From Tistrella mobilis (GTDB lineage: Bacteria; Pseudomonadota; Alphaproteobacteria; Tistrellales; Tistrellaceae): a stretch of DNA of 64,000 nt. The translations under genes were made by a program, and so were the position numbers. The stretch spans positions 124,001 through 188,000 of the forward strand of contig NZ_CP121014.1 of assembly GCF_041468085.1 (NCBI RefSeq), in the 5' to 3' direction. The notes under the pieces were generated by a model that did no database searches, had not been told where the DNA came from, and saw only the letters and a program-made list of their open reading frames with translations. Shown piece by piece: positions 37,732 through 59,054 of the stretch; within the stretch, counting starts at the first letter, position 1; each line of letters begins with the position of its first letter.

Positions 37732-37891
37732 CGGGCGATCTCCGATCTGCGGGGATGTCCCGGGCGAACGCCCGGGGGCCGCGCATGTTCCTCGAAATGT
37801 TCTCTGGAAACCTTCCGGCATATGTGGCGTTCTGTCGTCGTGCCCGCCGTATCGCTGACCGCCCCGTTATGTCATCGGAAAGGACGACGCC

Positions 37892-38422
37892 ATGCCGTCA
37901 CAGATCCACGGCTTTACCGCAGCCCTCACTGCGATGCTGATGATCGCGGCCGCCCCCGCCATTGCCGCCGAGGCCGAGACCATCCGCGCGAAAGCGCGTT
38001 TCATCGGCCTCTCGGGCGAAGAAACCGGCACCGCCACCCTCACCGGCACTGCGCGCGGCGTGCTGATCCAGGCCGAGGTCCGGGACCTGCCGGCCGGGCA
38101 GTGGGTCGCCTTTCACATCCATGAAGGCGGGACCTGCGATGCGGCCGACCACCACAAATCGGCCGGCGGCCATTTCAACCCGGGCAACACGGCCCATGGT
38201 TTCCTGGCCGAAGGCGGGCCGCATGCCGGCGACATGCCCAACCAGATGGTCGGCGCCGACGGCACGCTTCACGCCGAGGCCTTCAACCCGATGGTCCGGC
38301 TCGACGACGGCCCGAACGGCATTCGCGGCCGGACGCTGATGATCCATGCCGGCCGCGACGACCACCGCAGCCAGCCCTCGGGCAATGCCGGCGACCGGCT
38401 GGCCTGTGCGGTGATTGAGTGA
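37892..38422 (+). CDS. sodC: Periplasmic Cu,Zn superoxide dismutase
   Basis: This exported enzyme of 176 residues dismutates superoxide. A signal peptide covers about residues 1-26. Copper ligands are His75 and His77 (FHIHEGGTC), His94 and His152 (IHAGRDD). Zinc ligands are His94, His102, His111 and Asp114 (GGPHAGDMPN). Cys82 and Cys172 form the usual disulfide, and the C-terminal PSGNAGDRLAC is diagnostic. The stop lies six bases from the convergent end of the phage tail module. Confidence 0.96.
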   Translation: MPSQIHGFTAALTAMLMIAAAPAIAAEAETIRAKARFIGLSGEETGTATLTGTARGVLIQAEVRDLPAGQWVAFHIHEGGTCDAADHHKSAGGHFNPGNTAHGFLAEGGPHAGDMPNQMVGADGTLHAEAFNPMVRLDDGPNGIRGRTLMIHAGRDDHRSQPSGNAGDRLACAVIE

Positions 38423-38428
38423 CGCGCG

Positions 38429-39526
38429 TCACCCATAGACGACAATCGTCACAGGAATGGCCGTGCTCGTGGACCCGGTGCCAAAGCCGTACATCATAAT
38501 CTCGATTTCCACCCAGTCGGTGGTTTTCGTGATAGCCAGCATCGGGATCTGAGGGTTGGCGTCGGGGCTCGAATCGAGATAGATGCCTGGCGCCTGGGCT
38601 TGCACGACATAGTTGGTGTTCGGCCTTGGGTTCGTGAATATCGCTCGAACCTTGCCGCTGACTCGGGAAATCGACGAGAAGCCCAACCGGTAGTCATCCG
38701 GATCGGTGGATCCAACCGCCGTCACCGGCGACAGGGCGTTGATGGCGGCCTTCACCCCGGCTGGCGTGGCAAGCTTCGTCGCATTCGTCCCGGTCTGCAT
38801 CTCGGCCGTGGTGGCGAGCCGGGCATCGATGGCGCCCTTCACGCGGCGCGGTGTTGCGACGCTGGCGGCTGCGGTTCCCGCCGTCATCTCGGCCGCGGTC
38901 GCCTCGGTCACGGTAACGGTCACGTCGCCGCCGAGCGCGCCCCCGCCGGTGACCAGGCCGCCTGCGATCACCCGGCGACTGTCGGGCACGTGATCGGCCA
39001 GCAGGGTGTCGCGGGTCACGGCCCGGAGTGCATTTTCTGCCGTATCGTGCACCAGCAGCCGCGTGCTGCCGGTGGTATCGGCGGCCGTCGGGGTGCCGGC
39101 AATGTCCACGCTGAGCGTGCGATCAGCGTCCAGGCTGCCGCCGCCGGTGAGCCCCGCCCCGGTATCCACCCGGCGGGTGCGCGGCACCGGCGTGACCAGA
39201 TCGGCGCCGGCCAGGGCACCACTCTCGTCCACATACACCGCCCGCGAAGCCGGCAGCACCGAGAAGACCAGCTTCTCGCCGGCCGGCAGGTTGATCAGCC
39301 CGGTGGTGCCGTTGGAATTCGACAGCACCGTCACCCGTTCCAGCTGGTTGCCGGTCACGATGCCCTGGCCGATTTCCCAGATCCCGTCTTCGGGGGCCAG
39401 GATCTCGTAGAACACCGGACCGTCGCCGCGGGCGGACAGCGGGGCAAGGCCGGTGGGCGGGGGCAGCAGCTGCAGTGCCCCGGTGCCCTCGGTGGTGGTG
39501 GTCTGATAGCCGCGATCGACAAGCAT
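38429..39526 (-). CDS. Phage tail fibre-like protein
   Basis: This 365-residue protein is the last gene of the tail module. The middle has two copies of a fibre-type motif, TAAEMTAGTAAASVATPRRV and TAEMQTGTNATKLATPAGVK, each followed by (K)AAI-like helices, which is common in tail fibres. The region RRVDTGAGLTGGGSLDADRT is a shaft-like glycine repeat. The C-terminus (about 100 residues, ITKTTDWVEIEIMMYGFGTG) may be the receptor-binding tip. The ATG overlaps the previous stop (TGATG). The function in host binding is inferred from motif and place. Confidence 0.85.
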   Translation of the reverse strand: MLVDRGYQTTTTEGTGALQLLPPPTGLAPLSARGDGPVFYEILAPEDGIWEIGQGIVTGNQLERVTVLSNSNGTTGLINLPAGEKLVFSVLPASRAVYVDESGALAGADLVTPVPRTRRVDTGAGLTGGGSLDADRTLSVDIAGTPTAADTTGSTRLLVHDTAENALRAVTRDTLLADHVPDSRRVIAGGLVTGGGALGGDVTVTVTEATAAEMTAGTAAASVATPRRVKGAIDARLATTAEMQTGTNATKLATPAGVKAAINALSPVTAVGSTDPDDYRLGFSSISRVSGKVRAIFTNPRPNTNYVVQAQAPGIYLDSSPDANPQIPMLAITKTTDWVEIEIMMYGFGTGSTSTAIPVTIVVYG

Positions 39527-40320
39527 CACAGAAGCTCCCGGATGGTCAGGGACGTGGAATGGAACAGGGGATCGGTGCGGATGAAGCCGCCATGGGCGGC
39601 GATGCGTCCGATCATGCCCTCGCGCGGCCAGTCGCCGAGCGGGGCCGGCACGCACAGCACCGGCCGGGTCAGGCCGCGGTCGAACAGCCGATCGATGGCG
39701 GCCTGCCGGTCGCCGGCGGTCATAGAGAAGTCGAACACCAGGCTGCGGCGCTTCGGGCCCTGATCGACCCATTCGGCGCCAGAGGCTTCGGCGACGGCGA
39801 TGCGGCTTGCATCCTCCATCTCAAGCCGCCAGCCATAGGCCATGTTGGCTTCGGGCCGGTCGCCCGGGCCGATCCAGATCAGGCCGATATCGACATGCGG
39901 TGCGGCGGGCGCCGTGGTCACCGTCATGCGCAGATGGCGGGCCACCAGCCCGGCCGGGGCCAGGGCCAGATGAAAGCCGATGCCGGTGCGGGCGCCGGGG
40001 ACCGCCGGGCCCTGCCAGAGATCGTCGCCGCCGCGCAGCGTACCCGCCGACCAGGCGACCATGTCACCCGGGCCAAGGCTGGTGCGGGCCAGGGCAAGCG
40101 CGCCCACCGGCTTCTCGTCCCCCAGATCGATGTCGATCGAGAACGAGGCCGCGGCAATGCGTGCCACCCGTGCCGGCCAGGCGTCCAGCATGTTCGCCAG
40201 CGGCAGCCCCGCGGCAACCGGCGCCGTGCAGCGCAGATCAGAGGCCGCAAGGCCGGCGGTGTGGTTGACGTGATCGACGATGATCCGCCGATCGCTGTCG
40301 GGAGAGAGGGATCCGCTCAT
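39526..40320 (-). CDS. Tail module protein, possible minor tail component
   Basis: I do not recognise a named family in this 264-residue protein. It looks like a beta-rich module, with ASFSIDIDLGDEKPVGALAL and ARHLRMTVTTAPAAPHVDIG resembling discoidin-like tail proteins, and a C-terminal part GDWPREGMIGRIAAHGGFIR. Both ends overlap its neighbours (TGATG), so it is translated between the giant tail-tip protein and the fibre. A minor tail or tip role is inferred from that position. Confidence 0.7.
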   Translation of the reverse strand: MSGSLSPDSDRRIIVDHVNHTAGLAASDLRCTAPVAAGLPLANMLDAWPARVARIAAASFSIDIDLGDEKPVGALALARTSLGPGDMVAWSAGTLRGGDDLWQGPAVPGARTGIGFHLALAPAGLVARHLRMTVTTAPAAPHVDIGLIWIGPGDRPEANMAYGWRLEMEDASRIAVAEASGAEWVDQGPKRRSLVFDFSMTAGDRQAAIDRLFDRGLTRPVLCVPAPLGDWPREGMIGRIAAHGGFIRTDPLFHSTSLTIRELL

Positions 40321-43300
40321 CAGGCGACCTGTTCATCTTGAAGGTTGGGGGACCAGAGGGTCAGCACCAGCCGCCCGCGGTCCCACTGTTCCGAGGTGGC
40401 GATCACCACCATGTCGCGGCCCCGGGCCAGGCCGTGGCGCGGGTGGGTCACCCGCACCGTGGCGCCGATCCGCACCGGCCGCACGAAGCGGATACGGCCC
40501 TCGGGCGTCAGCTCTTCGGCAAGCAGGGCCGGCATCGCCAGCGAGATCATCAGCCCCGGCCGGCCATAAAGATCCAGCAGCCGCCGGGCATGGGCTTCGG
40601 CATCGGCGGCGGTGTCGAACCAGCTGTCGACCGGCTCCACATCCTGTGCCGCCGCACGGCCGACCAGAACGCCCAGATCCGCCGCCGAGGCCACGCGCCA
40701 GGTCTCGGCCGCGAAACTGCGGTCGAGCGCGGTTTCCACATCCGAGGGTGGCAAATCCGATGCTGTCATCGGCCGCCAGTTGCGGGTGTGATTGACTCGC
40801 CGCCGCCAGGCGGCGCGGGCGGTGCTGCCCGGCATTTCCAGCCGTTCCGGCGCTTCCAGGATCATGGTCGGATCGATGACCAGCGACGGCGTGGCCGCAG
40901 GGGCGCGGACCATGCCGATGCCGATCCGCCCGGTGCCGTCTTCGCCCCACCAGCCATTGATGCCGCGCAGGATTTCCGACGCCGCCTCGCCGGCCGTGGC
41001 GGTGCCGTCGCTGCCCTGCCACCAGCCGATCACGCCCGGGCAATCGGCGGCGATGGCGGCGAAGCCCGTGGGATCCAGCCGGTCGGCGGGCAGGCTCGCG
41101 AAGTCGAGCATGATCCGCCGCACGATGCCGGCGGTGTCGGACACGAAACCACCTTCGGCATCGCCGTCGAAATCCACCGTCACCACGCCCACCGGCGGGG
41201 TGGTGCCCAGCCGGATCAACCCTTCGGCCAGGCAGGTGGCGAAATGCCCCGGCGGCACGTCCAATGCCGCCAGCGCCGTCAGATCCGCCACATCCTGTCC
41301 CGAGGGGGCGATCGGCAGGCCACGGTCATAGACCGCATGCACCGCCTGGATCCGCCGTGCGCTCAGCTGCAGGATGCCGAGCGCGGGTGCCACCGCCACG
41401 GGTTCCACATTGCGCAGGCGGCCGAAGCCCATCGGCATGCGCTTGCCGATCAGATCGGGCGAGACCTCGATTGCCGGATGCTCAGCATAAAGCCGCGTCG
41501 TCAGCGGTCGGTCGAGCAGGCCGGCCATGCCCTGCACCGTCAGGGCCACGGCGTTGCGGGTGCCGGTCAGTTCGTCGCCGACACCGTCGAACAGCAGGGC
41601 GAAATCGCGATGCCGGGCGCCTGCGACGTCGCGATGTCCGGCCCGGACCACCACCCGCCGCCGGGCGACGTCGTAGACGTCCGGCACCTGGTCCAGTGCG
41701 CCGTCGGCGTTGATCAGATCGATCCGGCCGATCTGAAGGATGGCGCGATCCCGCGATTCCGGCGCGATCGGCATCGAGCGTTCGATCACCAGCGGCACCG
41801 CGCCGCGCGGATCGAACCAGGTGCTGGCCGGCTGGTCGTCGGGCACGGTGGCGAAGGCCTTGTCGGTATAGCGCAGCACCACCACCGGCACCCGGCCGTC
41901 AGAGGCCCCGGCCCCGTTTTTGGCGCCCCCGTTCTCGGGCGGCAATGTCGCCCAGGGCAGCGCCGCCCAGGCGGCCGCCAGGCGCGGCCGGCCGCGGGGC
42001 GCCGCCAGATCGGCGGCCTGCACCTCCACCGTCACCACCTGGTCGACCGCCGGCCGGAAGGGCAGGCGGATCACACCGTCCAGCCCGAACATGTCGAGCG
42101 CGGCAGCGGTGGCCATGGCCGCATCGGGATAGGCCTCGCCATAGCGGGCGGTGGGGGAATAGGTCGCGGCCGAGGGTTCGGCCGCATCCCAGTTCCAGCC
42201 ATACAGAAAGGCGCCGGCCCCCTGCCGGAACAGCACGTGATTGAGATAGGCCCGCATGTCGTCGAGCGACCGGCGGGCGCCGGTATCGGTGTGCGGCGGG
42301 GTGAAGCCCCATTCCGGCGGCCCGACCCGCAGGCCGATATGCAGGGCCGTGTCCGGAAACCAGTGCCGATAGGCGTCGTAGGCGACCATGGGCTCGTAAT
42401 CGAGCCCCGCGTCATAGGTCATGATGTTGATGTAGTCCAGCGCCGCCCGGGCTTCGGGGTCGCGGGCCAGCGCCAGGGCATAGCCGCCGTTCCAGCCGCC
42501 GCCCACAGGTCTGGCCGTCGCGAAGGGCGGCTCGCCGAAGCAGCCGACATGCATGCCGGCCCAGCCGAGTTCGTAGCCCAGATCGCGGGGAAACCAGCGC
42601 CGGAAGCGCTTGATCACCGTGACCAGTTCGGCATCGGTATAGCAGACGCGGCGACCGTTTTCGTCGGTCCGGCAATGGGTTTCCAGCCCGGGCAGTTCCG
42701 AGATGCACTCATAGTCCACATCCACCCCGTCCAGCCCCAGATCGTCGACCATCCGGCGCAGCGCCGCCATGTCGGCTTCGGTCTGGCCACCGAACCCGTC
42801 GGGGTGATAGGGCTCGGGCATCCACTGCTCGCCATACTGCATCACCACCAGGATCAGCCGGGTTGCGGGATGCCGGCGGCGGAACCGGTCCAGCACCCGG
42901 CGCAGCTGCCGGCCGGTGCAGGGGATGGGCAGCCCGCCGGTCTGGTCCAGCCGGTCGTCGGGCCCGGCATAGCTGCAGCGCGGCTTCGCCGTGTGCAGGA
43001 ACACCCGGGCCGTGCCGTTGGGCACGCGCATCAACCGCATGGCGTCGATCGCCACCGGGTCGTCGTAATCGGCGGGGATGTCGAACCAACTCTCCCAATA
43101 GACGTTCCAGCTCTGCCCTGAGGGCACCAGCCGGCGGCTGGTCAGGCCGGCCGCAACCGCCGCCGTTACCGGCGTCGGCAGCGCGGCCTCGGCGGTGATC
43201 CGGCCGCTCTCCTGGTCCTGGACGGCCGCGGTCAGCTCCAGCGCCAGAATGAACTGGGTCGAATAGGCGGTGTCGCGCACCAGGTCGAAGCCGATCCGGC

Positions 43301-44561
43301 CGCCGCCCGGACGGGTGAACAGGCGGGCGCCGGCATGCTCGCCCACCGCCTCGGCCGGTTTGCTCCAGCCGGGCGCCGTGAAGCCCGCCGTAGCCCCCCA
43401 GGGGTTGAACACGAAAGCCAGAAGCAGGCTGTCGAGATGGGTGTCCTCAAGCGGGACACGGGTGGTCGCATCGGTCGACACCAGGGCGGTGCGCGCCTCG
43501 ATACAGCCGGTCACACCCGACAGCGCGACGGCGGTCAGGGTCACGATGCCGACGAATCGGTCCTCGGCGGCGGCCTCCAGCAGGTTCGGTCCGGCGGGCG
43601 GGTCGGCCAGGATGGCCAGGCGAAACCGCCCGGTCTCGTCCATATCGGCGTCGAAGCCGTTCACATAGCGCAGGCGCCGGCCGCCATAGACCAGGGCCGG
43701 TGGCGGATCGGCATGGGTATAGCCCACGGCCACCAGCAGCAGATCGGCGCCGGTGCCGTCGATGATGCCGCCCTCGGGGCCCGCGGCCGGGGTGCTGCCG
43801 AAGGTCACGCCGCGCATGGTCTGGTCCAGCGCGCCCAGATAGAAGCTCTCGGCCGCCGTCACCTCGATCGGCTTGCGCGGCCGGCCGCGCGGCGGCACCG
43901 AAATGGCGGCGGCCAGCAATGCGATATCGGCCCAGGGGGTGCGCGCCACCAGATGCGGTGGGCCCGCCTCTGCGGCATCGGCCAGGCTGCGCGACAGGGC
44001 GGCGACCCGCGCCCAGCCCTGGCCTGCCACGCCATGGGCCGTCCAGCCGGCGGCAGGGATGTCGCCCGTGTCGTTGTAGAAGCCCGTGGCCACCGCCAGC
44101 AGCAGCCCGTCCTCGCCGATGCCCGGCGGTTCGATGCCGGGCAGGGTGATCGCGGTGGTGCTGTCCGCCCCTTCCACCGCCTCGGCCTTCACGATGCCGA
44201 TCCGGCCGGCGGTGCCCGCCAGCGCGAACACCGCAACCTCGGTAGAGCCGATCCAGTAGGGGGCGGTGATCGCCAGTTCCTGCGGCCCGGCCGCCGGCCG
44301 CGCCAGATGGAACACGGCGACGGTGCCGAAGCTCTCGTGATTGACCAGCGGCTCAGGATAGTCCTTGGCCATGGGCGTGCCGGCGAAGCTCACCGCCGGG
44401 CCCAGGTCGTAGACCGTGCCCTGGTTCTGCGGGTCATAGAAGCTGAACGGCACCATGACCACCAGCAGGTCGGCGCCGGTGGCGTCCACGGTCATGGTCC
44501 GGGTCGTGCCGTTCAGCACGCCGAAGGCCTGAACCGCTGTGCCGATGATCTGCACGCTCAT
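40320..44561 (-). CDS. Giant tail-tip/baseplate protein with internal GH18 chitinase-like domain
   Basis: This 1413-residue protein follows the tape measure in the tail operon. Residues 1-225 and about 236-460 are two related beta-rich units (compare DATGADLLVVMV and DGTGADLLLVAV). Residues about 485-820 form a glycosyl hydrolase family 18 barrel: WNVYWESW at the first strand, the catalytic DGVDVDYE at 611-618 (42708-42731) with Glu618 as acid, INIMTYDAG for the sixth strand and GAFLYGWNWD for the eighth. The rest (about 880-1413) resembles a tail hub, with VVLRYTDKAFATVP and a C-terminal RVTHPRHGLARGRDMVV. The start at 44561 overlaps the previous stop as ATGA. The enzyme part may cut chitin- or peptidoglycan-like glycans at the target cell. 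Confidence 0.88.
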   Translation of the reverse strand: MSVQIIGTAVQAFGVLNGTTRTMTVDATGADLLVVMVPFSFYDPQNQGTVYDLGPAVSFAGTPMAKDYPEPLVNHESFGTVAVFHLARPAAGPQELAITAPYWIGSTEVAVFALAGTAGRIGIVKAEAVEGADSTTAITLPGIEPPGIGEDGLLLAVATGFYNDTGDIPAAGWTAHGVAGQGWARVAALSRSLADAAEAGPPHLVARTPWADIALLAAAISVPPRGRPRKPIEVTAAESFYLGALDQTMRGVTFGSTPAAGPEGGIIDGTGADLLLVAVGYTHADPPPALVYGGRRLRYVNGFDADMDETGRFRLAILADPPAGPNLLEAAAEDRFVGIVTLTAVALSGVTGCIEARTALVSTDATTRVPLEDTHLDSLLLAFVFNPWGATAGFTAPGWSKPAEAVGEHAGARLFTRPGGGRIGFDLVRDTAYSTQFILALELTAAVQDQESGRITAEAALPTPVTAAVAAGLTSRRLVPSGQSWNVYWESWFDIPADYDDPVAIDAMRLMRVPNGTARVFLHTAKPRCSYAGPDDRLDQTGGLPIPCTGRQLRRVLDRFRRRHPATRLILVVMQYGEQWMPEPYHPDGFGGQTEADMAALRRMVDDLGLDGVDVDYECISELPGLETHCRTDENGRRVCYTDAELVTVIKRFRRWFPRDLGYELGWAGMHVGCFGEPPFATARPVGGGWNGGYALALARDPEARAALDYINIMTYDAGLDYEPMVAYDAYRHWFPDTALHIGLRVGPPEWGFTPPHTDTGARRSLDDMRAYLNHVLFRQGAGAFLYGWNWDAAEPSAATYSPTARYGEAYPDAAMATAAALDMFGLDGVIRLPFRPAVDQVVTVEVQAADLAAPRGRPRLAAAWAALPWATLPPENGGAKNGAGASDGRVPVVVLRYTDKAFATVPDDQPASTWFDPRGAVPLVIERSMPIAPESRDRAILQIGRIDLINADGALDQVPDVYDVARRRVVVRAGHRDVAGARHRDFALLFDGVGDELTGTRNAVALTVQGMAGLLDRPLTTRLYAEHPAIEVSPDLIGKRMPMGFGRLRNVEPVAVAPALGILQLSARRIQAVHAVYDRGLPIAPSGQDVADLTALAALDVPPGHFATCLAEGLIRLGTTPPVGVVTVDFDGDAEGGFVSDTAGIVRRIMLDFASLPADRLDPTGFAAIAADCPGVIGWWQGSDGTATAGEAASEILRGINGWWGEDGTGRIGIGMVRAPAATPSLVIDPTMILEAPERLEMPGSTARAAWRRRVNHTRNWRPMTASDLPPSDVETALDRSFAAETWRVASAADLGVLVGRAAAQDVEPVDSWFDTAADAEAHARRLLDLYGRPGLMISLAMPALLAEELTPEGRIRFVRPVRIGATVRVTHPRHGLARGRDMVVIATSEQWDRGRLVLTLWSPNLQDEQVA

Positions 44562-44965
44562 GGCAGGGCCATCCTGAAACTGGTCACCTGGATGAAATGC
44601 CCGATCTCCACCGGGCCCGCCGCCAGCACCAGGTCGCCGGCCGGGGCGTCGGGCAGGGCAGGGGCCAGCGACACATCGCCGTCGAAGGCGGTGGTCCCGT
44701 CGCGAAGCACCATGCGGAACCAGGCGGGCATGCCCGCGGCACGGGCAGTGCCGGTCCATTCCCCGGTCATCGCAGCACCCGTGGCATCTGCGGGTTTGAA
44801 CGGCACCTCCGGCAGGCGCAGCACGGCCAGCAGATTACCGGCGGGTGCCGCGATGTCCGGGCTGGCCGGCCGCACGCCCTGATAAAGGTGCAGGCGGGCA
44901 TCGGCGAGCAGGGCGGCCACCGCATCGGTGGCGGCCCGGCGCATCGGCAGGGAATGGACGATCAT
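44558..44965 (-). CDS. Small tail module protein
   Basis: This 135-residue protein of unknown family lies between the tape measure and the tail-tip gene, overlapping both by four bases. The sequence is rich in beta-forming stretches (LLAVLRLPEVPFKP and AGDLVLAAGPVEIGHFIQV). In siphophages this place is often held by a distal tail or tip-adaptor protein, which is a guess here. No motif is diagnostic. Confidence 0.72.
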   Translation of the reverse strand: MIVHSLPMRRAATDAVAALLADARLHLYQGVRPASPDIAAPAGNLLAVLRLPEVPFKPADATGAAMTGEWTGTARAAGMPAWFRMVLRDGTTAFDGDVSLAPALPDAPAGDLVLAAGPVEIGHFIQVTSFRMALP

Positions 44966-47900
44966 GCGACCCTCATCTTCTGAAGCAGCAGACCGCGCTC
45001 TTCAAGCCGGCGCAGTTCGCGCAGCTCTTCGGTCTGGGTGACGATGGCGCCGACGGTGCCCTCGGCGCCGGACGCGATCTGCCGCCCCACCGCCTGGGTG
45101 TCGTTGCGCAGCGCGGTCAGCACCTCGCGCAGCGCGCGGACCTCGCCGATCAGCGCGTCGTTGCGTGCCGTTTCCGCGACCTGGGCTGCAACCGCGCCGC
45201 CGGCCGTGGCATTGGCGCTTGCGGCGGGTGCCGCAGCCGCGGCGGGTGCCGCAGCCGCGGCGGGTGCCGCGGCGGTGGCGGCAGCGGTGCCGGTACCGGA
45301 TGCGGCCGTCACCGTGCCGCCCACCGATCCCTGCAGCAGCTGGTTCAGGGCCGCGATCGCCTCGGCCAGCGCGGCCTCGTCGTTGCCGGCATCGGTCAGT
45401 GCCGGCAGGCCGGCCAGGCTGCTGCGCACCATGTCGACCAGGGCCGCCTGGCGCACGCCCGATCCGTTGATCTCGCGACCAAGGCCCAGCAGCGTATCGG
45501 CACTGGCGGTGATCCGGCCCAGCGCCGCTGCATCCCCCGTGCGTGCCGCGGCCAGATCGGCGGCGAAGGCGCTCTGTGCCGCCTGGAAGCGGCTGGTGGC
45601 ATTGCCGCCGCCGGCCTCGCTCTGGTCCAGCGCCGCCAGCCAGTCGCGAATGCCGCCGGTCGCGGTATCGGTGTCCACCGCCACCCGGCGGATCATCTCC
45701 GCCAGGTCGGGGAAGCGGGCGGCCAGGGCATCGATCGCCTCGGCCGACAGGCCCGCGCCATCCACCATATTGCGGATTTCAAGGCCCAGCGCTTCCGACA
45801 ACTTCGAAACCCCGGCACTGCCCGCGGCGGTGAAGGCATCGCGCGCTGCGGTTTCCGCCGCGGTGATCATGTCGGCGACCTGGTCCACCACCCCCAGCCC
45901 GCGGGCGCTGCGGATGCGCCGGTCCAGCCCTTCGCTGTAGTCATTGGCGATCTTCTCGCGCGCGGCGGCCAGCGCATCGGCCACCTGGGCCGCGGTCAGG
46001 CCGAAATCGGCGGCCGATTTCGCATAGGTCGCGAAGGTCTCCTCGACCGTGATCATGGCCTGGGAGAACTCGGTCACCGCCGGTGCCTGATCGCGGATGC
46101 CCAGCAGCCGCTCGACGAAGCCGGTCAGCGCCGCGTTCACCGGCTCCATGTCCTGGTTCAGCCGTTCCGCGGTCTCGCGGAAGCTTTCCAGCTGGTCGAT
46201 CTGCGCTTCGGCCGCCTCGCGCGCCCGCTTGGCGGCGTTGTCGTTCAGGTCCAGCCCCTCGTTCAGCCATTTCAGCGTGTCGGCCAGGCTGGTCGCGAAG
46301 GTGATGTCCTGAAAGGCCTTGTCGAGGTCGGACCAGTCGATCTTGTCGACGGCACGGGTCAGGGCCTCGGGGATTTCGCCGGTCAGTTCCGACACAAGGT
46401 CGCGGGCGATGTAGGTGAGGGCCTTTTCCGGATCGTCGCTGTCGGCGATGCGTCTCTTGCTGCCATGGCTGGTGCCGTACTGGATGCCGTCGCGGCTGCC
46501 GACATCGATCTGGCGGCGCACATGGTCCAGGCTGCCGCCGGTGATGTCTTCAAGCAGCGTGCCCACCTGGAAGATCGCGTCGATCAGCTGGTCACGGGCC
46601 TCCACATTGCGCTGGTCGCGGGTATAGCCCGATCGCTCGATCTCTCCGGTGCCGGGCTGGATGGTGGCCCAGGCGGCATAATTGCTGGGCTTCTTCTTGC
46701 CGATCAGCCCGCCCAGGGCCGCGCCCGCCACAAGCCCGATCCCGGGCAGCGCCAGCCCGCCCAGGGCGGTTGCGATGCCGGTGCCGGCAATGCCCGGCAC
46801 GCCGGCCAGGATCGCACCACCCGCCGCCCCCAGCCCGCCGCCGATCGATCCACCCAGCTGGTTGCCGCCGAACAGCCCGGCCAGCGGCCCGCCCAGGGTG
46901 AAGCCGATGCCGGCGGCACCCAGGGCCGAGCCGAGTGAGGTTGCCGTCCAGCCGCCCGTGCCCATCGGCAGCTGCGCCGTGCCGGTGAAGCCCGCCGCTT
47001 CCGCGGCGGCAAGCTGGCCCAGGCTGGCCGCCGAGGTGCTGGCGCCCGCCTGGAACATGCCGAGCGACCGGCCGATCACGTCGATCGGCCCGGCCAGGCT
47101 GCCGAAGGTCTGCGTGCCCAGATTGCCCAGGTTAAGCGAGCCGTTCGCCTTGCTCAGCACCGACCACAGCCCGCCGAGCAGGCTGCCGTCATTGCCGGCC
47201 ACCGTGGTGACGGCCGATCCACCGCGCGTGAACAGCCCGCTGAAGCGGCCCAGGAGATTGCCCGCCAGTCCCTGCAGGGCGCCACCCAGATCCTTCACCA
47301 GCGGGTCGAGAACCCTGCTTTTCAGGCCCTTGGTGATCTCGCTGCCGACATCTTTCAACAGGGTCCGGCCGGTCTGTTTCAGCCCGCCGAAATCGCCCGA
47401 GACCAGCTTGTCGACGGCCTCCTCAAAGGCGGTTTCGAAATGCTTCGAAATCTCCGGCCAGAAGCCGTCATCGGGCGTGGTCCGCCCGGGCGTCTGCGGC
47501 GTGGTCGTCGGCTGATCCGTCTTGTCGACCACGGTGGTGCGCTCCACCGCCCGGTCGCACTGGCAGGGCATGGCGGTCGCTACCGGCTGGGTGGCGATGG
47601 TGGCGATCGACGTGCCGCCGCCGGTCACCACCTGCGCGGCCGCGGACGGCTGCCCCGGCGGCACGGTCCCGGAGGCCTTGAGCCGGGCTTCCGCCTCCTT
47701 CTTCTTGCGCTCCTTCTCCTTTTCCGCGGCCAGGACCATGGCATCCAGCGTCGGCGCGACCATGTCGCCCAGATCCGATGCCAGATCGGTCAGCTGTGTC
47801 GCCATCGCGTCTCGCATGCCGCCGATATAGTCGGTGGTCAGCGCGGCATGGATCGTCTTCTGCAGCCGCTCGCCCAGGCCCGCGAAGCCGTAGGCGTTCT

Positions 47901-49269
47901 CCGCCCCGTCCTCATAGGCCTTGCCGATCGCCTGCGCGGCGCCCTTGAAATCGCCGTCCATCAGGCGATCCCACACATTGCCCACGGCCTCGATGCTCTT
48001 GTTGAAGCGCTCGATCACCGCATGATAGATCGTGTTGCCGACCTCGATCGCGGCGCCGCCGATCGCGGCGAACAGGCCGATCGCGGTGTTGTACACGCTC
48101 TTCATCGTGTCGCCGAAGCTGCCGATGGCCCGGCCGATCCAGGCGAAGGCCTTGCCCATCGCGCCGGTGATGTTCGTCCAGATGTCGCCCGCAAACAGCT
48201 TCATCTGGTCCCAGACCACGTCGGCGAGATCGGCAAGCGTCACCATGCTGTCGGTCACCGGACGGATGTCGTCGGCAAAGGCGACAAGTGCCGCGCCGGC
48301 CAGCACGACCGCGGTGGTGATGGCGCCGAGCGGCGTGAACAGCAGTGTGGCGTTCAGCGCCATAAAGGCGGTTCGCGCCACGGTGATGCCGGTTTCGATG
48401 CCGCCCAACATGGCGGCAAGCGTGCCGCCGGCCACCACCAGCGGGCCGATATTGTCCGCCGCGACCAGCATGGCGGCCGCCATCCGCTCGGTGATGCCGA
48501 AGGTCTGGTCGATCCGGCCGACCAGCGTGGTGAACGAGGTCTCAAGCGCCGAAAGCGCGCCGCCGATGCGTGGCGGCAGGGCGTCGAAAGCCTCGGCGAT
48601 CGCCGGGGCCCGGCTTTCCAGTGCCGCAAAGACATCGGCAGAGGCAAGCCGGCCTTCGCGGGCCAGCGCGATCATGTTGTCGGTGCTGATGCCCAGGCTT
48701 TGCGCCAGCATCTCGGCCAGGCGCGGGCTTTCGGTCATGGTCTCGGTGAAGCTGCGGCCGTCCACCGCGGCCCTGGCCAGCGATCCGGCCAGCCGGCCGG
48801 CCGCGGCGTCCAGGTCGCGGCCGGCGGCGCCCGACAGCGCCATGCCCTGGGCGATGGCCCGGGAAACGCCGACCGCCCGGTCCAGCCCGCCGCCGAACCG
48901 GTCCATGTCGCGGGCAAGCCCGGTGAAGATGCCGGCCATGGCGCCCAGAGAGGTCTGGCTGTCCTGCGCCGCGCGGGCGATTTCCTGCTGAAGCGGCGCC
49001 ACTTCGGCGGTGGCGCCGGCCACGCCGGCGATCCGGGCTTCGACGCCCGCCCATGCATCGGCAAGGCCCAGCAGCCGGCCAGCCACCGAGGCGACGGTGC
49101 CGGCGGCGCCGGCGACGGTCTGCCGGGCGTCGTCCAGCGCTCTGGCGGCGGCCGCGGCGGGGTCGTCCTGCCGGGTGGTGCTCTTCGTGGCCGTGCCGGC
49201 CATTTTCATCTCGGCCGCCGCTCCGGCGCCCGGCGCCTGGAGCACGAGCCGCAAGCTGATGTCGGTCAT
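44962..49269 (-). CDS. Phage tail tape measure protein
   Basis: This 1435-residue protein sets tail length. The N-terminal tape measure domain is clear: SLARAAVDGRSFTETMTESP, then RLAEMLAQSLGI, DNMIALAREGRLASADVFAAL and a short turn. Several hydrophobic segments occur at about 290-330 (LLFTPLGAITTAVVLAGAAL) and around 850-900, rich in Gly and Ala (LGAAGGAILAGVPGIAG). Long helical stretches fill the remainder. An Ala/Pro repeat lies near the C-terminus. The ATG at 49269 begins MTDISLRLVLQ; the open frame upstream is not supported. The start is 91 bases after the frameshift product's stop. Confidence 0.93.
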   Translation of the reverse strand: MTDISLRLVLQAPGAGAAAEMKMAGTATKSTTRQDDPAAAAARALDDARQTVAGAAGTVASVAGRLLGLADAWAGVEARIAGVAGATAEVAPLQQEIARAAQDSQTSLGAMAGIFTGLARDMDRFGGGLDRAVGVSRAIAQGMALSGAAGRDLDAAAGRLAGSLARAAVDGRSFTETMTESPRLAEMLAQSLGISTDNMIALAREGRLASADVFAALESRAPAIAEAFDALPPRIGGALSALETSFTTLVGRIDQTFGITERMAAAMLVAADNIGPLVVAGGTLAAMLGGIETGITVARTAFMALNATLLFTPLGAITTAVVLAGAALVAFADDIRPVTDSMVTLADLADVVWDQMKLFAGDIWTNITGAMGKAFAWIGRAIGSFGDTMKSVYNTAIGLFAAIGGAAIEVGNTIYHAVIERFNKSIEAVGNVWDRLMDGDFKGAAQAIGKAYEDGAENAYGFAGLGERLQKTIHAALTTDYIGGMRDAMATQLTDLASDLGDMVAPTLDAMVLAAEKEKERKKKEAEARLKASGTVPPGQPSAAAQVVTGGGTSIATIATQPVATAMPCQCDRAVERTTVVDKTDQPTTTPQTPGRTTPDDGFWPEISKHFETAFEEAVDKLVSGDFGGLKQTGRTLLKDVGSEITKGLKSRVLDPLVKDLGGALQGLAGNLLGRFSGLFTRGGSAVTTVAGNDGSLLGGLWSVLSKANGSLNLGNLGTQTFGSLAGPIDVIGRSLGMFQAGASTSAASLGQLAAAEAAGFTGTAQLPMGTGGWTATSLGSALGAAGIGFTLGGPLAGLFGGNQLGGSIGGGLGAAGGAILAGVPGIAGTGIATALGGLALPGIGLVAGAALGGLIGKKKPSNYAAWATIQPGTGEIERSGYTRDQRNVEARDQLIDAIFQVGTLLEDITGGSLDHVRRQIDVGSRDGIQYGTSHGSKRRIADSDDPEKALTYIARDLVSELTGEIPEALTRAVDKIDWSDLDKAFQDITFATSLADTLKWLNEGLDLNDNAAKRAREAAEAQIDQLESFRETAERLNQDMEPVNAALTGFVERLLGIRDQAPAVTEFSQAMITVEETFATYAKSAADFGLTAAQVADALAAAREKIANDYSEGLDRRIRSARGLGVVDQVADMITAAETAARDAFTAAGSAGVSKLSEALGLEIRNMVDGAGLSAEAIDALAARFPDLAEMIRRVAVDTDTATGGIRDWLAALDQSEAGGGNATSRFQAAQSAFAADLAAARTGDAAALGRITASADTLLGLGREINGSGVRQAALVDMVRSSLAGLPALTDAGNDEAALAEAIAALNQLLQGSVGGTVTAASGTGTAAATAAAPAAAAAPAAAAAPAASANATAGGAVAAQVAETARNDALIGEVRALREVLTALRNDTQAVGRQIASGAEGTVGAIVTQTEELRELRRLEERGLLLQKMRVA
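45221..45274 (-). repeat. 18-bp tandem repeat in the tape measure gene
   Basis: Two identical 18-base units (GCGGCGGGTGCCGCAGCC) and a third copy differing at the last positions stand in tandem. They encode a hexapeptide repeat of Ala and Pro (APAAAA type) near the C-terminus, probably a flexible linker. Confidence 0.85.
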
Positions 49270-49360
49270 ATCGGGGTGTCCATCTGAAGCGGATCGAAGA
49301 AGGGGAGCGGGCGAAGACGGGGATGGGCCGGCCGCAACGGATGAAGGCGGCACGCCCGCG

Positions 49361-49726
49361 TCACCGGCGCCGGGCGCGCCAGACGTCGAGGGCGGCCGCC
49401 TCCATGGCCTGGATGTCGTCGAGGAGATCCGGCGTCACACGGCAGCGTTCGACACGGGCCACGAAGGCGAGTGCCGTGTAGTCCAGGCCGATGGGCTGGC
49501 CGGCCGGCCCGGCGGTGCGCCACTGGGTCGCCACCCGCCGGAACAGGGACCAGGGCTTCAGATTCTGGGGCCAGATTTCGATGCCGTCCGGGCCGGCGAG
49601 CAGCCGCCGGCGCGCTTTCAGCGCCGCCGCCTGCTCGCCGGTGATGCCCAGCATCGCCAGGTCCTGGTCCTGATCGTCTTCGGCCGCATCGTCGCCCGCC
49701 GCCCAGGCGCGGGCGACGTCGGTCAG
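49361..49726 (-). CDS. Tail assembly chaperone extension read by -1 frameshift (DUF1799-like)
   Basis: This frame is the second half of a gpG/gpGT-type chaperone. It is open from the slippery site at 49726 without a stop to 49361 and, joined to the 120 residues before it, gives a 241-residue fusion. The later part (from MLGITGEQAAALKARRRLLA, which could also be a separate start at 49654) resembles the DUF1799 family found between chaperone and tape measure genes, with VATQWRTAGPAGQPIGLDYT. No ribosome site of note precedes 49654. Fusion through the frameshift signal is therefore preferred over separate initiation. Confidence 0.8.
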   Translation of the reverse strand: MTDVARAWAAGDDAAEDDQDQDLAMLGITGEQAAALKARRRLLAGPDGIEIWPQNLKPWSLFRRVATQWRTAGPAGQPIGLDYTALAFVARVERCRVTPDLLDDIQAMEAAALDVWRARRR

Positions 49727-49732
49727 TTTTTT
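49690..49732 (-). promoter_or_regulatory. Programmed -1 ribosomal frameshift signal
   Basis: The slippery heptamer A AAA AAC (49732-49726) stands in the exact zero-frame phase, directly before the TGA of the chaperone gene (49725-49723). Seven bases after the heptamer begins a perfect 10-bp GC stem (49718-49709 with 49699-49690, arms CGTCGCCCGC and GCGGGCGACG) around a nine-base loop. Spacer and stem are as expected for a stimulatory structure. Slipping back one base enters the frame that ends at 49361. Confidence 0.88.
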
Positions 49733-50085
49733 CGCCGGATCATGCCGTTGGAGATCGAGGCGAAATAGGCATGGGCCACGGCATTGCGCACCGGCAGCAG
49801 CGCGAGCAGCAGGTCGCGATTGTCGTCCGAGAAGGGGATCGGCTCGCCCGACTCTGCATCCTGCAGGTCGCTTTCCCAGCCGATCAGGGCGCGGCGCATC
49901 AGGGCCTTGTCCTCGTTCTCGCCGGCTTCCTGCGCGCTGCGCCGGATCGCGTCGATCTCGGTATCGGGCAGCATTTCGAAGCGGGCGGTGAACGAGGCCC
50001 GGTCGAAGCCGCCCCGTTCATTGGGCATTTCGACCGAGACACGGGCGGTGAATTCCAGCCGGTCGGCGATGCGGAGCTTCAGCAT
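49723..50085 (-). CDS. Phage tail assembly chaperone, short form (gpG-like)
   Basis: This 120-residue protein is placed directly between the tube and tape measure genes, as tail chaperones are. It begins MLKLRIADRLEFTARVSVEM and ends SNGMIRRKN. The slippery AAAAAAC lies in its last codons, so most ribosomes stop here and a fraction continue into the DUF1799-like frame. Short and long forms together are thought to coat the tape measure during tail assembly in lambda-like phages. The start lies nine bases after the tube stop. Confidence 0.87.
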   Translation of the reverse strand: MLKLRIADRLEFTARVSVEMPNERGGFDRASFTARFEMLPDTEIDAIRRSAQEAGENEDKALMRRALIGWESDLQDAESGEPIPFSDDNRDLLLALLPVRNAVAHAYFASISNGMIRRKN

Positions 50086-50094
50086 GACCGGTCC

Positions 50095-51021
50095 TCAGCG
50101 CACGGTGATGGCGAATTCGCTGGCGACCAGCGTCGGCAGCAGGGCCAGCTGCATCTGCAGGCCCACCGTGCCCGAAATCTCCTGATAGGTGATGTCGGTG
50201 ATCTGGACCTTGCGCAGCGTCAGCCCGACCTTGGCGCCATCCTCGGTGCCGTGGTTGATGCTGATCACGCCGGTGGTGTTGGCGGCGGCATCGCTGAAGA
50301 AATTGCGCGTCGCCAGCTGCGGCATCTGGGCGGTGATCGTTGCGGTGCCGCTGCGGGCGACGCGTTCGATCTTCTCGGCATCGGTCAGGGCCACGTACTG
50401 GACGTCGTTGCCCATATTCAGTTCCAGCGACTGCATGCCCAGCGAAACGGCATCGAAGGCGACCGCCGTCGCAACCGGGCCCACCGGCACCGGGGTGGTG
50501 AAGCCGTTGAGCGACACGGCCGGCATTGCTTCGGCGGTCACGGGCACGAACAGGCCGATGAAGGTGAACGACAGATAGGGGATCTGGTCGACCGTCATCC
50601 GGATCGCGAGGTTGCCGCGGGCGCCGGTCACGGCATGACGCACGCCGTCGACATTGACATAAAGCGTGGCCGAGGGCGGCGTGTCGTCGGTCGGGGCATA
50701 GGCGACGCTTTCGTCGGTGACGATGTCTTCCGACATGCCGCAGGCCTTGAGCAGGCTGCCATAGGCGGGCACGGTACCGGCCTCGCCCGCGCCGGCGAAG
50801 GCGACGTCGAAGGTGACCTGCACATTGCGGCCGACCATGAAACCGCCGCGATTGCCCAGGCGGCCGTCATCGATATTGCGTTCGGCCAGGCCGTGCTGAA
50901 GCGGGGTGATCGCCAGATTCTCGGTCTCGATCGCGTCGCTGGTACCGTTGGGCGCGGCGTCGAGGGCGTAGCCGCTCTCCAGTTTGGCGAGAATCGTCTT
51001 GCGGCGCCAGGTATAGGCCAT
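50095..51021 (-). CDS. Phage tail tube protein
   Basis: This 308-residue protein is the major tube subunit of a long non-contractile tail. The N-terminus (WRRKTILAKLESGYALDAAP, then NLAITPLQ) is typical of the Phage_tube_2 type, where a Y/Gx2-PTG-like turn precedes the first strand. The rest is beta-rich, with KVQITDITYQEISGTVG near the C-terminus. There is no sheath gene, so the tail should be siphovirus-like. It is the first gene of the leftward tail operon. Confidence 0.88.
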   Translation of the reverse strand: MAYTWRRKTILAKLESGYALDAAPNGTSDAIETENLAITPLQHGLAERNIDDGRLGNRGGFMVGRNVQVTFDVAFAGAGEAGTVPAYGSLLKACGMSEDIVTDESVAYAPTDDTPPSATLYVNVDGVRHAVTGARGNLAIRMTVDQIPYLSFTFIGLFVPVTAEAMPAVSLNGFTTPVPVGPVATAVAFDAVSLGMQSLELNMGNDVQYVALTDAEKIERVARSGTATITAQMPQLATRNFFSDAAANTTGVISINHGTEDGAKVGLTLRKVQITDITYQEISGTVGLQMQLALLPTLVASEFAITVR

Positions 51022-51360
51022 GGGTTTGATCTCCGGGGAAAATCAGGATGCTCCGGAGGTGGAGCGGTATGCTGCATGACATGCAACAGCACACCGCCGA
51101 GCGTATTTTGCCGCGGAAGATTCTGCATCACAAGTTATGTTGCCACACGGTTGCACCATGCGGCCGCGTTTCCGGATGTGCCGCGAAACGGGTGGATGAT
51201 GAATATCGTCAGTGGTGTGTCGGTAAACGGAATATCATTTTCAATTGAAAAATTCTGGCCGGCATTTCGTCTGCCATGCCCAAATGTCCGAAGGCCGGCA
51301 CATGACGCCACATCACGTGGAGGTGGTGCACCACCGGTCGATGCAGGAGAGGACGAGACC
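51022..51360. other. Intergenic region between tail operon and sulfatase pseudogene
   Basis: This 339-base divergent gap has no credible gene. It holds three palindromes: TGCAT-GAC-ATGCA at 51072-51084, TTTTCAATTGAAAA at 51238-51251 in an AT-rich stretch, and GGTGGTGCACCACC at 51322-51335 just before the sulfatase ATG. The promoter of the tail operon must lie here or further right; I could not pick convincing -35 and -10 boxes. Confidence 0.6.
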
Positions 51361-52453
51361 ATGACCCGGCCCGTGCCCGGCCGGCGCCCGAATTTCCTGG
51401 TCCTGATGGTGGACGAGATGCGCCATCCGCCGGTCTATGAAAGCGCCGCGACCAGGGCCTTTCGTGCCGCGCGTCTGCACATTCAGCCGGCACGGCCTGC
51501 CGTCCTACACCGCCGACGGGGCGCCCGATCCGCAGAAGATGGCGCTTTATCGGGCCGCGAACCGGCTGGATCCCTATGGTTTCGACGCCTGGATCGGGCC
51601 GGAGCCCCACGGGTCGAATCCGCTCAACAGCGGCTCGTCCGCCAGGGATGCCCGCGGGCGTGATGTCGCCTGTCGCGACGAGGCGGTGGCGACGCTGAAG
51701 GCGCTGGATGCCGCCGAGGACGATACCCCCTGGCTGATGGTCGCCTCGTTCGTGAACCCGCACGACATCACCCTTTACGGCCTGGCCGCCCGTCTGGGTG
51801 GCGGCTTCTCCTTTCCCGTGGGCGAGGACGTGCCCCGGGATCTGTTCGACGAGAGCTTCAAGGCGTCGCGCTTCGAGGATCTGTCGACCAAGCCTTCCGC
51901 CCAGGCGAGCTATGCCGAGAGCTACCGGCAGTGGATGCAGCCGATCGTCGACAAGGAATTCTACCAGCGCCTCTGTTATCAGCTGCAGCAGACGGTCGAT
52001 GCCGATCTGATGGCGGTCTACGAGACGCTGATGCAGAGCCGCTTTGCGGACGATACCATCGTGATTTTCACCTCCGACCATGGCGACCTGCTCGACGCCC
52101 ACGGCCATATGCACCAGATCTGGAGCACCCCGGGCCGGCCGGGCAATCCGAATGTGAATGTCGAAGACATCGTGACCAGCCCGGTGGGCACGCCGCCCGA
52201 CACCGACGGCACGATCCAGTGGCCTTACGACTACACGGTCAAGCACCAGCCGGTGGCCGAGGAATACGAGATGTACGAACTCACCTCCGACCCGCTGGAG
52301 CTGAACAATCTGGCCGGCCAGCCGCAATGGGCCGACCGGCAGGCGCAGCTTGCCGCATTGCTGGCCGAACAAAGCGCCGCCAAGCGCACAATTCCCCGGA
52401 GCGGCCGCGTTCCCGGCCAGCCCCTGCCGATCCCGGCCGGCCAGATGGGATAA
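51361..52453 (+). pseudogene. Sulfatase pseudogene lacking the catalytic segment
   Basis: The first part (from ATG 51361, RPNFLVLMVDEMRHPPVYES) is the N-terminus of an alkaline-phosphatase-fold sulfatase with its first metal aspartate. The frame then fails at about 51450-51490, and a different frame continues to 52453 with LPSYTADGAPDP, TIVIFTSDHGDLLDAHGHMH (the second metal site) and a C-terminal part. The C/S-x-P-x-R motif that is converted to formylglycine, normally within the first 100 or so residues, is missing. The gene has therefore suffered an internal deletion plus frame change and cannot be active. A plain sequencing error would not remove the motif. Confidence 0.87.
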
Positions 52454-55275: not shown

Positions 55276-56148
55276 TTACCCGCCGCCCGAGGCATCGGAC
55301 ATCCACTGCGCGAACACCGCCATGGCCCGGGTCTGCGGCCGATCCGACGGCCAGGCCAGGAAGTATCGCCCGGCCGATACGGTGATCGTGAAGGGCCGGA
55401 CCAGTCGCCCCTGGCGGATCTGGCGGGTGAACATGGCGACCGGCAGCAAGGCGACGCCGAAGCCGTCGGCCGCCAGTTCCGCAAGCGCCACCGAGCTGTC
55501 GAAGATCGGGCCGGTCACGGGCGGGCAGGGGGTTCGGGCGGCCGCGAACCATTGCGGCCATTCCGTGGCGCGATAGCTGCGCAGCAGGATCGTCTTGCCC
55601 AGATCGGCCGGCTCCCGCAGCTGCGCGGCCGCTGCCGGTGCGCAAAGCGGCGCCAGCGGTGCCTCCATCAGCGGCACGGTCTCATGTCCGGTCCAGCCGC
55701 CGGTGCCGAAGCGGATGGCCATGTCCAGCCCTTCGCGCAGGATTTCCACGCGGTTGTTGTTGGTGGCGATGCGCAGCTCGATCTCGGGATGCGCCGCACG
55801 GAATCCGTCCAGCCTTGCCATCAGCCAGCCCAGGGCGAAGGTGGTGTTCACGCCGACATTCAGCACCTCGACATCCCGCCTGCCGTGCAGCCTGTCCAGC
55901 ACCCGGCCGATGGCGTCGAAACTGTGTTCCAGCACCGGCGCCAGAAGCCGGCCTTCATCCGTCGGCACCAGGCCTTGCGAGGTGCGCTGGAATAGGGTGG
56001 TGCCCAACAGATCCTCCAGCCGGGCGATCTGATGGCTGACCGCCGCCTGGGTCACGCGCAGCTCGATCGCCGCCTTGGTGAAGCTGCCCTGGCGCATGGC
56101 GACCTCGAAGACGCGCAGCGCGTTCAGGGGGATGTCCGGGCGATCCAT
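55276..56148 (-). CDS. LysR family regulator, GcvA/AmpR-like
   Basis: This 290-residue regulator has an N-terminus of the AmpR/GcvA clade, IPLNALRVFEVAMRQGSFTK, then AAIELRVTQAAVSHQIARLE. It is divergent from a class A beta-lactamase gene 103 bases away, the classic ampR-bla layout, so it probably activates the lactamase in response to muropeptides. A LysR-type dyad lies in the gap. No ampG or amidase gene is in the window to support the muropeptide route. Confidence 0.9.
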   Translation of the reverse strand: MDRPDIPLNALRVFEVAMRQGSFTKAAIELRVTQAAVSHQIARLEDLLGTTLFQRTSQGLVPTDEGRLLAPVLEHSFDAIGRVLDRLHGRRDVEVLNVGVNTTFALGWLMARLDGFRAAHPEIELRIATNNNRVEILREGLDMAIRFGTGGWTGHETVPLMEAPLAPLCAPAAAAQLREPADLGKTILLRSYRATEWPQWFAAARTPCPPVTGPIFDSSVALAELAADGFGVALLPVAMFTRQIRQGRLVRPFTITVSAGRYFLAWPSDRPQTRAMAVFAQWMSDASGGG

Positions 56149-56150
56149 CG

Positions 56151-56167
56151 CATAACCTCAGCTTATG
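56151..56167. promoter_or_regulatory. LysR-type dyad in the ampR-like/bla gap
   Basis: CATAA and TTATG are separated by seven bases, giving a T-N11-A LysR box just upstream of the regulator start. A second CATAAG follows at 56223. It is a likely binding site for the divergent LysR protein. Confidence 0.55.
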
Positions 56168-56251
56168 GCGGCCAGCAGGATTTGTCTTCTGGGCGGCCGA
56201 TGCAAGCCGGATTAAGAGAGCGGCATAAGAAAATCTTGAGGAGATCTCATA

Positions 56252-57157
56252 ATGCCGACCGCTCTTCCGCGTCTGCCGCGTCTGCCGCGTCTGGCGGGGC
56301 TTGCCCTCGGGCTGTTGCTGGCGACGCCGGCCCTTGCCGAAACACCGAAGACCCATATGGCCGAGACCCGGCTTGCCGACACCGTCAGCCGCATCGAAGA
56401 TCAGCTCGACGCGCGCATCGGCCTTGTGCTGCACGATACCGGCCGCGGCTGGAGCTGGGATCACCGCGCCGACGAGCGCTTTCTGATGAACAGCACCGTC
56501 AAGATGCCGATCTGTGGCGCGATCCTCGCCGGGGTCGATGCCGGGCGCATCTCACTGGACGAAACCCTTCCCATCCGACGGGCCGATCTGCTGTCCTATG
56601 CGCCGGTCACCGAACCGCGTGCGGGCACGGCGATGTCGATCGCCGATCTCTGCTTCGCCACCCTGGACCAGAGCGACAACACCGCCGCCAATCTTCTGAT
56701 CGCCCGTCTCGGCGGCCCGGCTGCGGTCACGCAGTTCTTCCGCAGCATCGGCGACCCGGTCAGCCGGCTCGACCGGCTCGAACCCGATCTGAACAGCGCG
56801 CCTCCCGGCGACCCCCGCGACACCACCAGCCCGGCGGCCATGGCGGCCACGATGGAAACCCTGCTTCTCGGCCATGGCCTGACCCCCGCCTCCCGGGCGC
56901 AGCTGACCGAATGGATGCGCCATGGCGGCGTCACCGGCGCCCTGCTGCGCAAATCCGCCCCGGCCGACTGGCAGATCGCCGATAAATCCGGTGCCGGTGA
57001 CACCACCCGCAACCTGGTGGCCCTGATCACCCCGCCCGATCGGGCGCCCTGGATCGCGGCGATCTACCTGGCGGACGCCGAGACGGATTTCGCGACGCGC
57101 AACAAGGCGCTGGCCGAGATCGGCGCAGCGGTGGTGGCCGTCATCAAGGGGCGGTGA
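56252..57157 (+). CDS. Class A beta-lactamase
   Basis: This periplasmic serine enzyme has 301 residues that hydrolyse penicillin-type antibiotics. Signal peptide: about residues 1-29. Motifs: Ser81-Thr-Val-Lys84 (S-x2-K), Ser141-Asp-Asn143 (SDN), Glu177 in RLEPDLN, and Lys245-Ser-Gly (KSG in IADKSGAGD). Cys88 and Cys134 match the Cys77-Cys123 disulfide of TEM-type enzymes. All catalytic residues are intact. The substrate range cannot be read from sequence. The N-terminus carries a 9-base tandem repeat. A GAGGAG site precedes the ATG. Confidence 0.95.
   Translation: MPTALPRLPRLPRLAGLALGLLLATPALAETPKTHMAETRLADTVSRIEDQLDARIGLVLHDTGRGWSWDHRADERFLMNSTVKMPICGAILAGVDAGRISLDETLPIRRADLLSYAPVTEPRAGTAMSIADLCFATLDQSDNTAANLLIARLGGPAAVTQFFRSIGDPVSRLDRLEPDLNSAPPGDPRDTTSPAAMAATMETLLLGHGLTPASRAQLTEWMRHGGVTGALLRKSAPADWQIADKSGAGDTTRNLVALITPPDRAPWIAAIYLADAETDFATRNKALAEIGAAVVAVIKGR
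56267..56293 (+). repeat. 9-bp tandem repeat in the lactamase signal region
   Basis: Three copies of CCGCGTCTG in tandem encode three Pro-Arg-Leu triplets ahead of the hydrophobic signal core. It adds basic residues to the signal n-region. Confidence 0.8.
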
Positions 57158-58611: not shown

Positions 58612-58964
58612 TCGACCGCCTGCTCGGCCCACGCGGCCCCCATCCCAACCGCGTGTCCCCGGAGGGGGAGTCGGCAGTGCTGGACGATGCCCTGGCTCAT
58701 CCCTGCCACGGCTCCCTGCGGGTGGCCCAGGAACTGGCGAAGCGAAACATCCGGGTGTCGTCCGGCGGCGTGCGAGGCGTATGGCAGCGCCACAACCTGC
58801 TGACCAGGCACGACCGCCTGCTTTGCCGGGAAAAGAGCACCGCGGAACGCAGGCTAACCCTGTCGGACGAGCACATCCGCGTTGAAGGCCATCGCATCTG
58901 GTTCGATACCATCGAGGAGATGCAGGTCGTGCTCGACCAGAACTTGGTCATCCACAATACCTGA
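58608..58964 (+). pseudogene. IS481-like transposase remnant, internally deleted
   Basis: An open frame of 118 codons joins two separate pieces of a transposase. The first (from about 58644, NRVSPEGESAVLDDALAHPC to RRLTLSDEHIR) is the helix-turn-helix N-terminus of IS481-type elements. The second (about 58880-58964, IWFDTIEEMQVVLDQNLVIH) is close to their C-terminal end (ETVEEMQTVLD..L). The whole DDE catalytic core between them is missing, so it cannot be active. The first residues (MIDRLLGPRG) run in from the SDR stop and are probably chance. Confidence 0.82.
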
Positions 58965-59054
58965 TTACCTCACAAGAGGGTGTGACTGTCAGCGGATAAT
59001 CAACTCTGCACACATATATGCAGCTCGCCCAGATGCTGCCTTGATACGCCACAG

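Follow-up and report, generated by a model that had tools for sequence, protein, structure and literature searches.

Mu-like siphophages of the B3/RcapMu type, including a prophage of Tistrella mobilis KA081020-065, have TG..CA ends and a short target duplication. Alphaproteobacterial gene transfer agents use phage-derived tail genes as well, and the tip of RcGTA includes a TIM-barrel-type enzyme domain. F-type tailocins (F-pyocins, monocins) are encoded by siphovirus-like tail genes that form one operon without head genes, are apparently selected, and descend from a lambda-like ancestor; known tailocins are released by lysis (PMC12090994). Finally, domesticated or "grounded" defective prophages have lost replication, packaging and lysis functions while keeping a tail under purifying selection; incomplete prophages show an excess of tail fibre genes, and co-option of tail genes by the host has already been proposed in print (PMC7744054).

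The window, i.e., the whole stretch of 64,000 nucleotides analysed here, comprises bases 124001-188000 of a 740-kb replicon in a Tistrella genome of 6.3 Mb (four contigs). It carries a tail module whose gene set, gene order and A_AAA_AAC site match those of Mu-like siphophages; by contrast with these phages, the module lacks a MuA-type transposase, B, Mor, lysis genes, terminase, portal, MuF, protease, capsid and terminator, and neither phage end was found. With F-type tailocins it shares siphovirus-like tail genes, the absence of head genes, a single operon and apparent selection, but it has a Mu-like rather than a lambda-like ancestor and no adjoining lysis cassette, regulator or terminator. 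While domesticated defective prophages show similar losses, a similarly kept tail and purifying selection, here nothing but the whole tail operon is left, its limits falling almost exactly on the first and the last gene of the tail. As in gene transfer agents, the tail genes are phage-derived and the tip holds an enzyme domain of TIM-barrel type; however, no capsid, portal or protease accompanies the module, and a gene transfer agent was ruled out because the HK97-capsid (PF05065) and portal (PF04860) families are absent from all three Tistrella genomes compared. The reading we favour, with a probability of about 0.5, is that the module is the tail operon of a Mu-like siphophage, kept by selection in Tistrella and most likely still making a headless flexible tail.

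Gene layout and chromosomal site

The features of the module and its immediate neighbours are as follows.

37892..38422, plus strand: sodC, an intact host gene at the module edge (NCBIfam SodC models, below the curated cut-off)
38429..39526, minus strand: tail fibre, 365 aa (phrog_21962, 2.8e-6)
39526..40320, minus strand: p264 minor tail protein (phrog_8610, 1e-16; 44% to the T. mobilis prophage)
40320..44561, minus strand: tail tip/hub protein, 1413 aa; GH18-like hydrolase domain in the centre, phrog_8917 domain at the C-terminus (phrog_8917, 2e-89)
42075..43214, minus strand: GH18-like glycoside hydrolase domain within the tip, catalytic motif DGVDVDYE intact (four-sequence profile against PDB)
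44558..44965, minus strand: p135, tail-tip-proximal structural protein (phrog_3758, 1.2e-21; 35% to the T. mobilis prophage)
44962..49353, minus strand: tape measure protein (PF20155, 1.7e-31)
49361..49654, minus strand: DUF1799 protein, or C-terminal part of the frameshifted chaperone (PF08809, 3.4e-15)
49723..50085, minus strand: tail assembly chaperone, 120 aa (phrog_569, 2.6e-13)
49726..49732, minus strand: -1 programmed frameshift site A_AAA_AAC, chaperone to DUF1799 (heptamer at the end of the chaperone ORF)
50095..51021, minus strand: tail tube protein, 308 aa (PF18906, 5.5e-13)
51022..51101, minus strand: candidate operon control region (imperfect palindrome at 51070-51088)
51359..52453, plus strand: sulfatase gene, broken by two internal losses and a frame change (tblastn with the intact T. 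mobilis sulfatase)

On the minus strand, eight open, tightly packed ORFs occupy the stretch from 51021 to 38429 (ORF check), in the order tube, chaperone, DUF1799, tape measure, p135, tip, p264 and fibre (Pfam and PHROGs), in agreement with an initial annotation that described all module genes as open and in one leftward operon. The resemblance to a phage tail greatly exceeds anything that chance would produce. The tube is 33% identical to the tubes of RcapMu and of the T. mobilis Mu-like prophage and 96% identical to that of L048, a second copy of the module; the tip and the N-terminal part of the fibre show 49% and 42% identity, respectively, to their T. mobilis prophage counterparts. The tape measure, the only TMP_3 protein genome-wide, probably starts at 49269 (MTDISLRL), and the listed ORF starts of the tip and the fibre appear to lie too far upstream, 44561 and 39526 being more likely. 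The chaperone frameshift that had been reported is right at sequence level; the heptamer A_AAA_AAC is common to the window, L048 and the T. mobilis prophage, the -1 frame after it is open through DUF1799 to 49361, and frameshifting is presumably in use. The 80 bases before the tube are identical to L048 at 78 of 80 positions versus 167 of 200 further upstream, which suggests a conserved control region; no sigma-70 match was found in 51022-51101. One stretch of 31 bp in the upstream region matched a site in front of urease genes with E 0.16, which was put down to chance.

At the fibre end, sodC stops at 38422 and the fibre at 38429, with the six bases between them that had been noted. BLAST similarity to T. 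mobilis stops at 38420, in the sodC stop codon, and resumes at 51377; the corresponding sodC-sulfatase interval of T. mobilis is ~0.8 kb long and holds no tail gene. A perfect 12-bp palindrome, TGACGCGCGTCA (38420-38431), lies exactly at this host/phage edge and takes in both stop codons, that of sodC and that of the fibre. The neighbouring sulfatase gene is not intact but broken: tblastn of the T. mobilis sulfatase (619-aa ORF), the gene for which is intact there, matched residues 2-44 in frame 3 and residues 136-350 and 485-592 in frame 1, residues 45-135 and 351-484 being lost here.

Upstream of sodC, the cytochrome P450 gene that T. mobilis carries between a TPP enzyme gene and sodC (L031:6040-7408) is absent (37797-37846), and this absence, together with the tail module, the broken sulfatase and an RTX gene, marks the sodC region as a gain-and-loss hotspot. 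Elsewhere in the window, a class A beta-lactamase gene (RCP-like, NF033103 above cut-off) is divergent from a PenR/GcvA-like LysR regulator gene (55276-57157), and a low-GC island (58600-60960; 56-58% versus 67-70%) without similarity to T. mobilis contains a 459-aa ORF (59055-60434, minus strand) that matches phrog_13435, of unknown function, at 1e-46 and gave no Pfam hit.

Origin from a Mu-like siphophage and extent of the loss

In T. mobilis KA081020-065, the same eight genes occur in the same order, with ~32-57% protein identity over matched stretches, and form the end of a complete Mu-like prophage. This prophage also encodes a transposase, a B-like ATPase, a late activator, an endolysin, a small and a large terminase, a portal, MuF, a gpG-like protein, a protease, a major capsid and a tail terminator; the portal and the B-like ATPase were named from position and sequence and the remaining genes by family hits. 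Its length (~36.5 kb; G002:C1:2630269-2666824, L007-L034) and ends (TGTGAGG... and ...GCGCGCTACA) are defined by the matching empty site in the window's genome, the insertion being in a thiolase-like gene (named from its sequence). RcapMu, a Vibrio Mu-like phage and Thiobacimonas phage P1 likewise show the order capsid, small genes including the terminator, tube, chaperone and tape measure. Among the 387 alphaproteobacterial genomes sampled, 29 have relatives of the tip C-terminus; five of the 20 loci read out (G011, G365, G235, G117 and G052) have a tube of the module's type with Mu-like head genes just upstream of it, and the terminator directly precedes the tube in G365 and G235. In two further loci (L079 and L089) the tube matched weakly, and the head-gene panel used detected no head gene. 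No clear stand-alone counterpart of the module was seen in the 20 loci read out, and exact peptide patterns found no close relatives in GTDB genome contigs. On gene content and order, the module is shown to be the tail operon of a Mu-like transposable siphophage, and since the T. mobilis prophage and the five class relatives have head genes upstream, its ancestor is read as a Mu-like siphophage with a head.

The genes that adjoin 38429-51021 include none for head, lysis or transposition and no phage regulator. A search of the module's own genome with concatenated T. mobilis TerL, portal, capsid, transposase, MuF, protease, endolysin and B sequences gave no match. The initial description, a siphovirus tail module that stands alone and lacks genes for head, integration and lysis, is borne out genome-wide for the Mu-like and HK97 families tested. 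With regard to lysis, no cassette was found among the genes beside the module and the Mu-like endolysin is absent from the genome. The terminator lies just upstream of the tube in relatives and is missing from that position here; PF23840, the one terminator family looked for, is absent genome-wide, and a decayed terminator upstream of the tube was rejected as no similarity was found. Neither phage ends nor a target duplication (no TG..CA ends, no CA+TTGAG duplication) were recognised at the module edges; both ends and everything upstream of the tube are thus read as lost, in a cut that is almost gene-exact from tube to fibre. An intact Mu-like right end at 38420 (TGACGCG after sodC) was considered because phage DNA there begins with TG, and was rejected because no matching duplication was found and because nothing here corresponds to the right end of the T. 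mobilis prophage, which lies ~570 bp past the fibre of that prophage.

The initial annotation had raised the possibility that a prophage elsewhere in the genome contains the missing genes. No split-off head locus was found, and a split prophage was ruled out by the lack of any match to Mu-like head genes, PF05065 or PF04860 and by the single TMP_3 protein. It is also very improbable that the module is one half of a split or satellite-like element that supplies tails to the heads of a visiting phage: complete related Mu-like prophages do exist in the genus, but the window's genome has no head locus, a tail without terminator should not join a head (PMC11784142), and the T. mobilis prophage has a tail of its own, at ~32-57% identity.

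A second copy and purifying selection

L048, an IMG/VR contig of 7314 bp (IMG genome 2744054543) that ends inside the tip gene, is 94.3% identical at the DNA level to 51301-43960 and was the sole further copy found in the viral collection. The 280 bp that take the terminator's place upstream of the tube are shared by both copies, and this common headless edge suggests that terminator and head were most likely lost before the two separated. The comparison with related genomes that had been proposed for the sodC-tail-sulfatase arrangement showed a tail-free site in T. mobilis.

The dN/dS analysis that had likewise been proposed gave 0.22 (dS 0.134) over 2378 codons shared by this one pair of copies, from the tube to the first part of the tip. 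Gaps were in-frame only and stops or frameshifts numbered 0, while ~16.6 stops would be expected if the genes were neutral (minimum 7 in 500 trials); the stops or relaxed selection in close relatives that had been named as a counter-indication were therefore not seen in this one close relative. By gene, dN/dS was 0.087 for the tube, 0.069 for the chaperone, 0 for DUF1799, and 0.26 for both the tape measure and p135; the first 266 codons of the tip ORF gave 0.77, the tip N-terminus being nearly identical between copies. Host genes of the window's genome compared with T. mobilis KA081020-065 have dS of 0.12-0.22 and dN/dS of 0.03-0.27, and the module, whose values resemble these, thus evolves as a typical host gene does at the divergence between species. 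Purifying selection on the module is shown in the one available sequence comparison, which covers the module up to its 3' third. As divergence between the copies is patchy, recombination with phages is likely and could have imported part of the purifying signal.

These data bear on two further explanations. An inert, well-preserved remnant, left when a recent deletion spared the tail operon by chance and still to decay, would be in keeping with the missing terminator, lysis gene and regulator, the absence of tail genes from the T. mobilis site, the many gains and losses in the neighbourhood, and a patchy divergence that permits recent recombination. We nevertheless consider it unlikely, as the two copies, truncated at the same edge, are as far apart as Tistrella species, with 0 stops in 2378 codons and a dN/dS of 0.22, and as the loss ended almost exactly at the tube start and the fibre stop. 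It is more doubtful still that selection acts on one or two proteins rather than on a particle, e.g., on the tip or fibre as an exopolysaccharide hydrolase or a phage receptor-masking protein; while the GH18-like domain is intact and related to a chromosomal exopolysaccharide-locus hydrolase, and the terminator is missing, the tube and chaperones, useless for such a role, have the lowest dN/dS (0 to 0.09), and the sequenced N-terminal part of the tip has the highest (0.77). We return, then, to a tail operon kept by selection; as selection has kept the tail proteins working, the bacterium probably uses them for something.

Probable product and biological meaning

The tip contains the GH18-like domain. 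A four-sequence profile of this domain retrieves chitinases from PDB (best E 2.3e-6), although single sequences fall below the Pfam cut-off, and single-sequence structure prediction was too low for use (mean pLDDT 37). Its nearest cellular relatives are GH18-like hydrolases in two Tistrella genomes (L006:1387-2472 and L005:1501-2406), probably secreted, which share the DGVDVDYE motif; the T. mobilis homologue adjoins a gene for an exopolysaccharide-type sugar transferase (functions of neighbouring genes taken from their sequences), and the window's genome yielded no second copy.

The sequence of events we propose is that the genes for head, lysis, transposition and terminator, together with both phage ends, disappeared from a Mu-like siphophage, and that the remaining tail operon was then kept by selection in Tistrella, steps for which the evidence is given above with its caveats. 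A headless flexible tail would most likely still be made, and a headless particle with a GH18-like hydrolase at its tip is the likeliest predicted product. At about 0.15 nm per residue, the tape measure of 1463 aa would give a tail roughly 0.2 micrometre long. Fibre and tip may bind a related cell, where the GH18-like domain, by homology to the hydrolase in the Tistrella exopolysaccharide locus, would cut surface polysaccharide; given where its relatives are encoded, the tail would bind and open a Tistrella-type polysaccharide coat. More speculatively, it might act like an F-type tailocin or a contact device and be released by stress lysis or by a lysis function encoded elsewhere. Assembly, target and release are all predicted from the genes.

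Of the initial suggestion that the module encodes a domesticated, R/F-pyocin-like tail particle, domestication is genuinely strengthened by the dN/dS of 0.22 against a copy with the same headless edge, and we judge the module to be a domesticated tail operon. The likeness to pyocins was not established, as no lysis cassette or terminator was found and the ancestor was a Mu-like and not a lambda-like phage; with lysis genes and terminator missing, the label tailocin is not yet justified. Without its terminator lambda makes endless polytails, while SPP1 makes tails of normal length that are unable to join heads (PMC11784142). Tails of the module may over-polymerise as in lambda; the SPP1 case makes terminator loss compatible with a headless device and is no proof of one. 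We suggest, tentatively and at less than even odds, that the module represents a new lineage of non-contractile tail device, built from a Mu-like tail operon without terminator, which would be required only for joining a head, with an exopolysaccharide-type GH18 domain in the tip, and acting against or between Tistrella kin.

As tail-fibre enrichment and co-option by hosts have been described (PMC7744054), a locus of this kind is already known; what is new is the phage it came from and the lack of a terminator. Broken prophages often contain more tail genes than expected, and whether this reflects chance or use can be tested directly here, because a single genus offers the ancestral form as a complete prophage, a site without the tail, and a headless second copy that has diverged. 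If particles are made, they would be an alphaproteobacterial non-contractile tail device of new phage origin and would provide a test of whether a terminator is dispensable once there is no head to attach.
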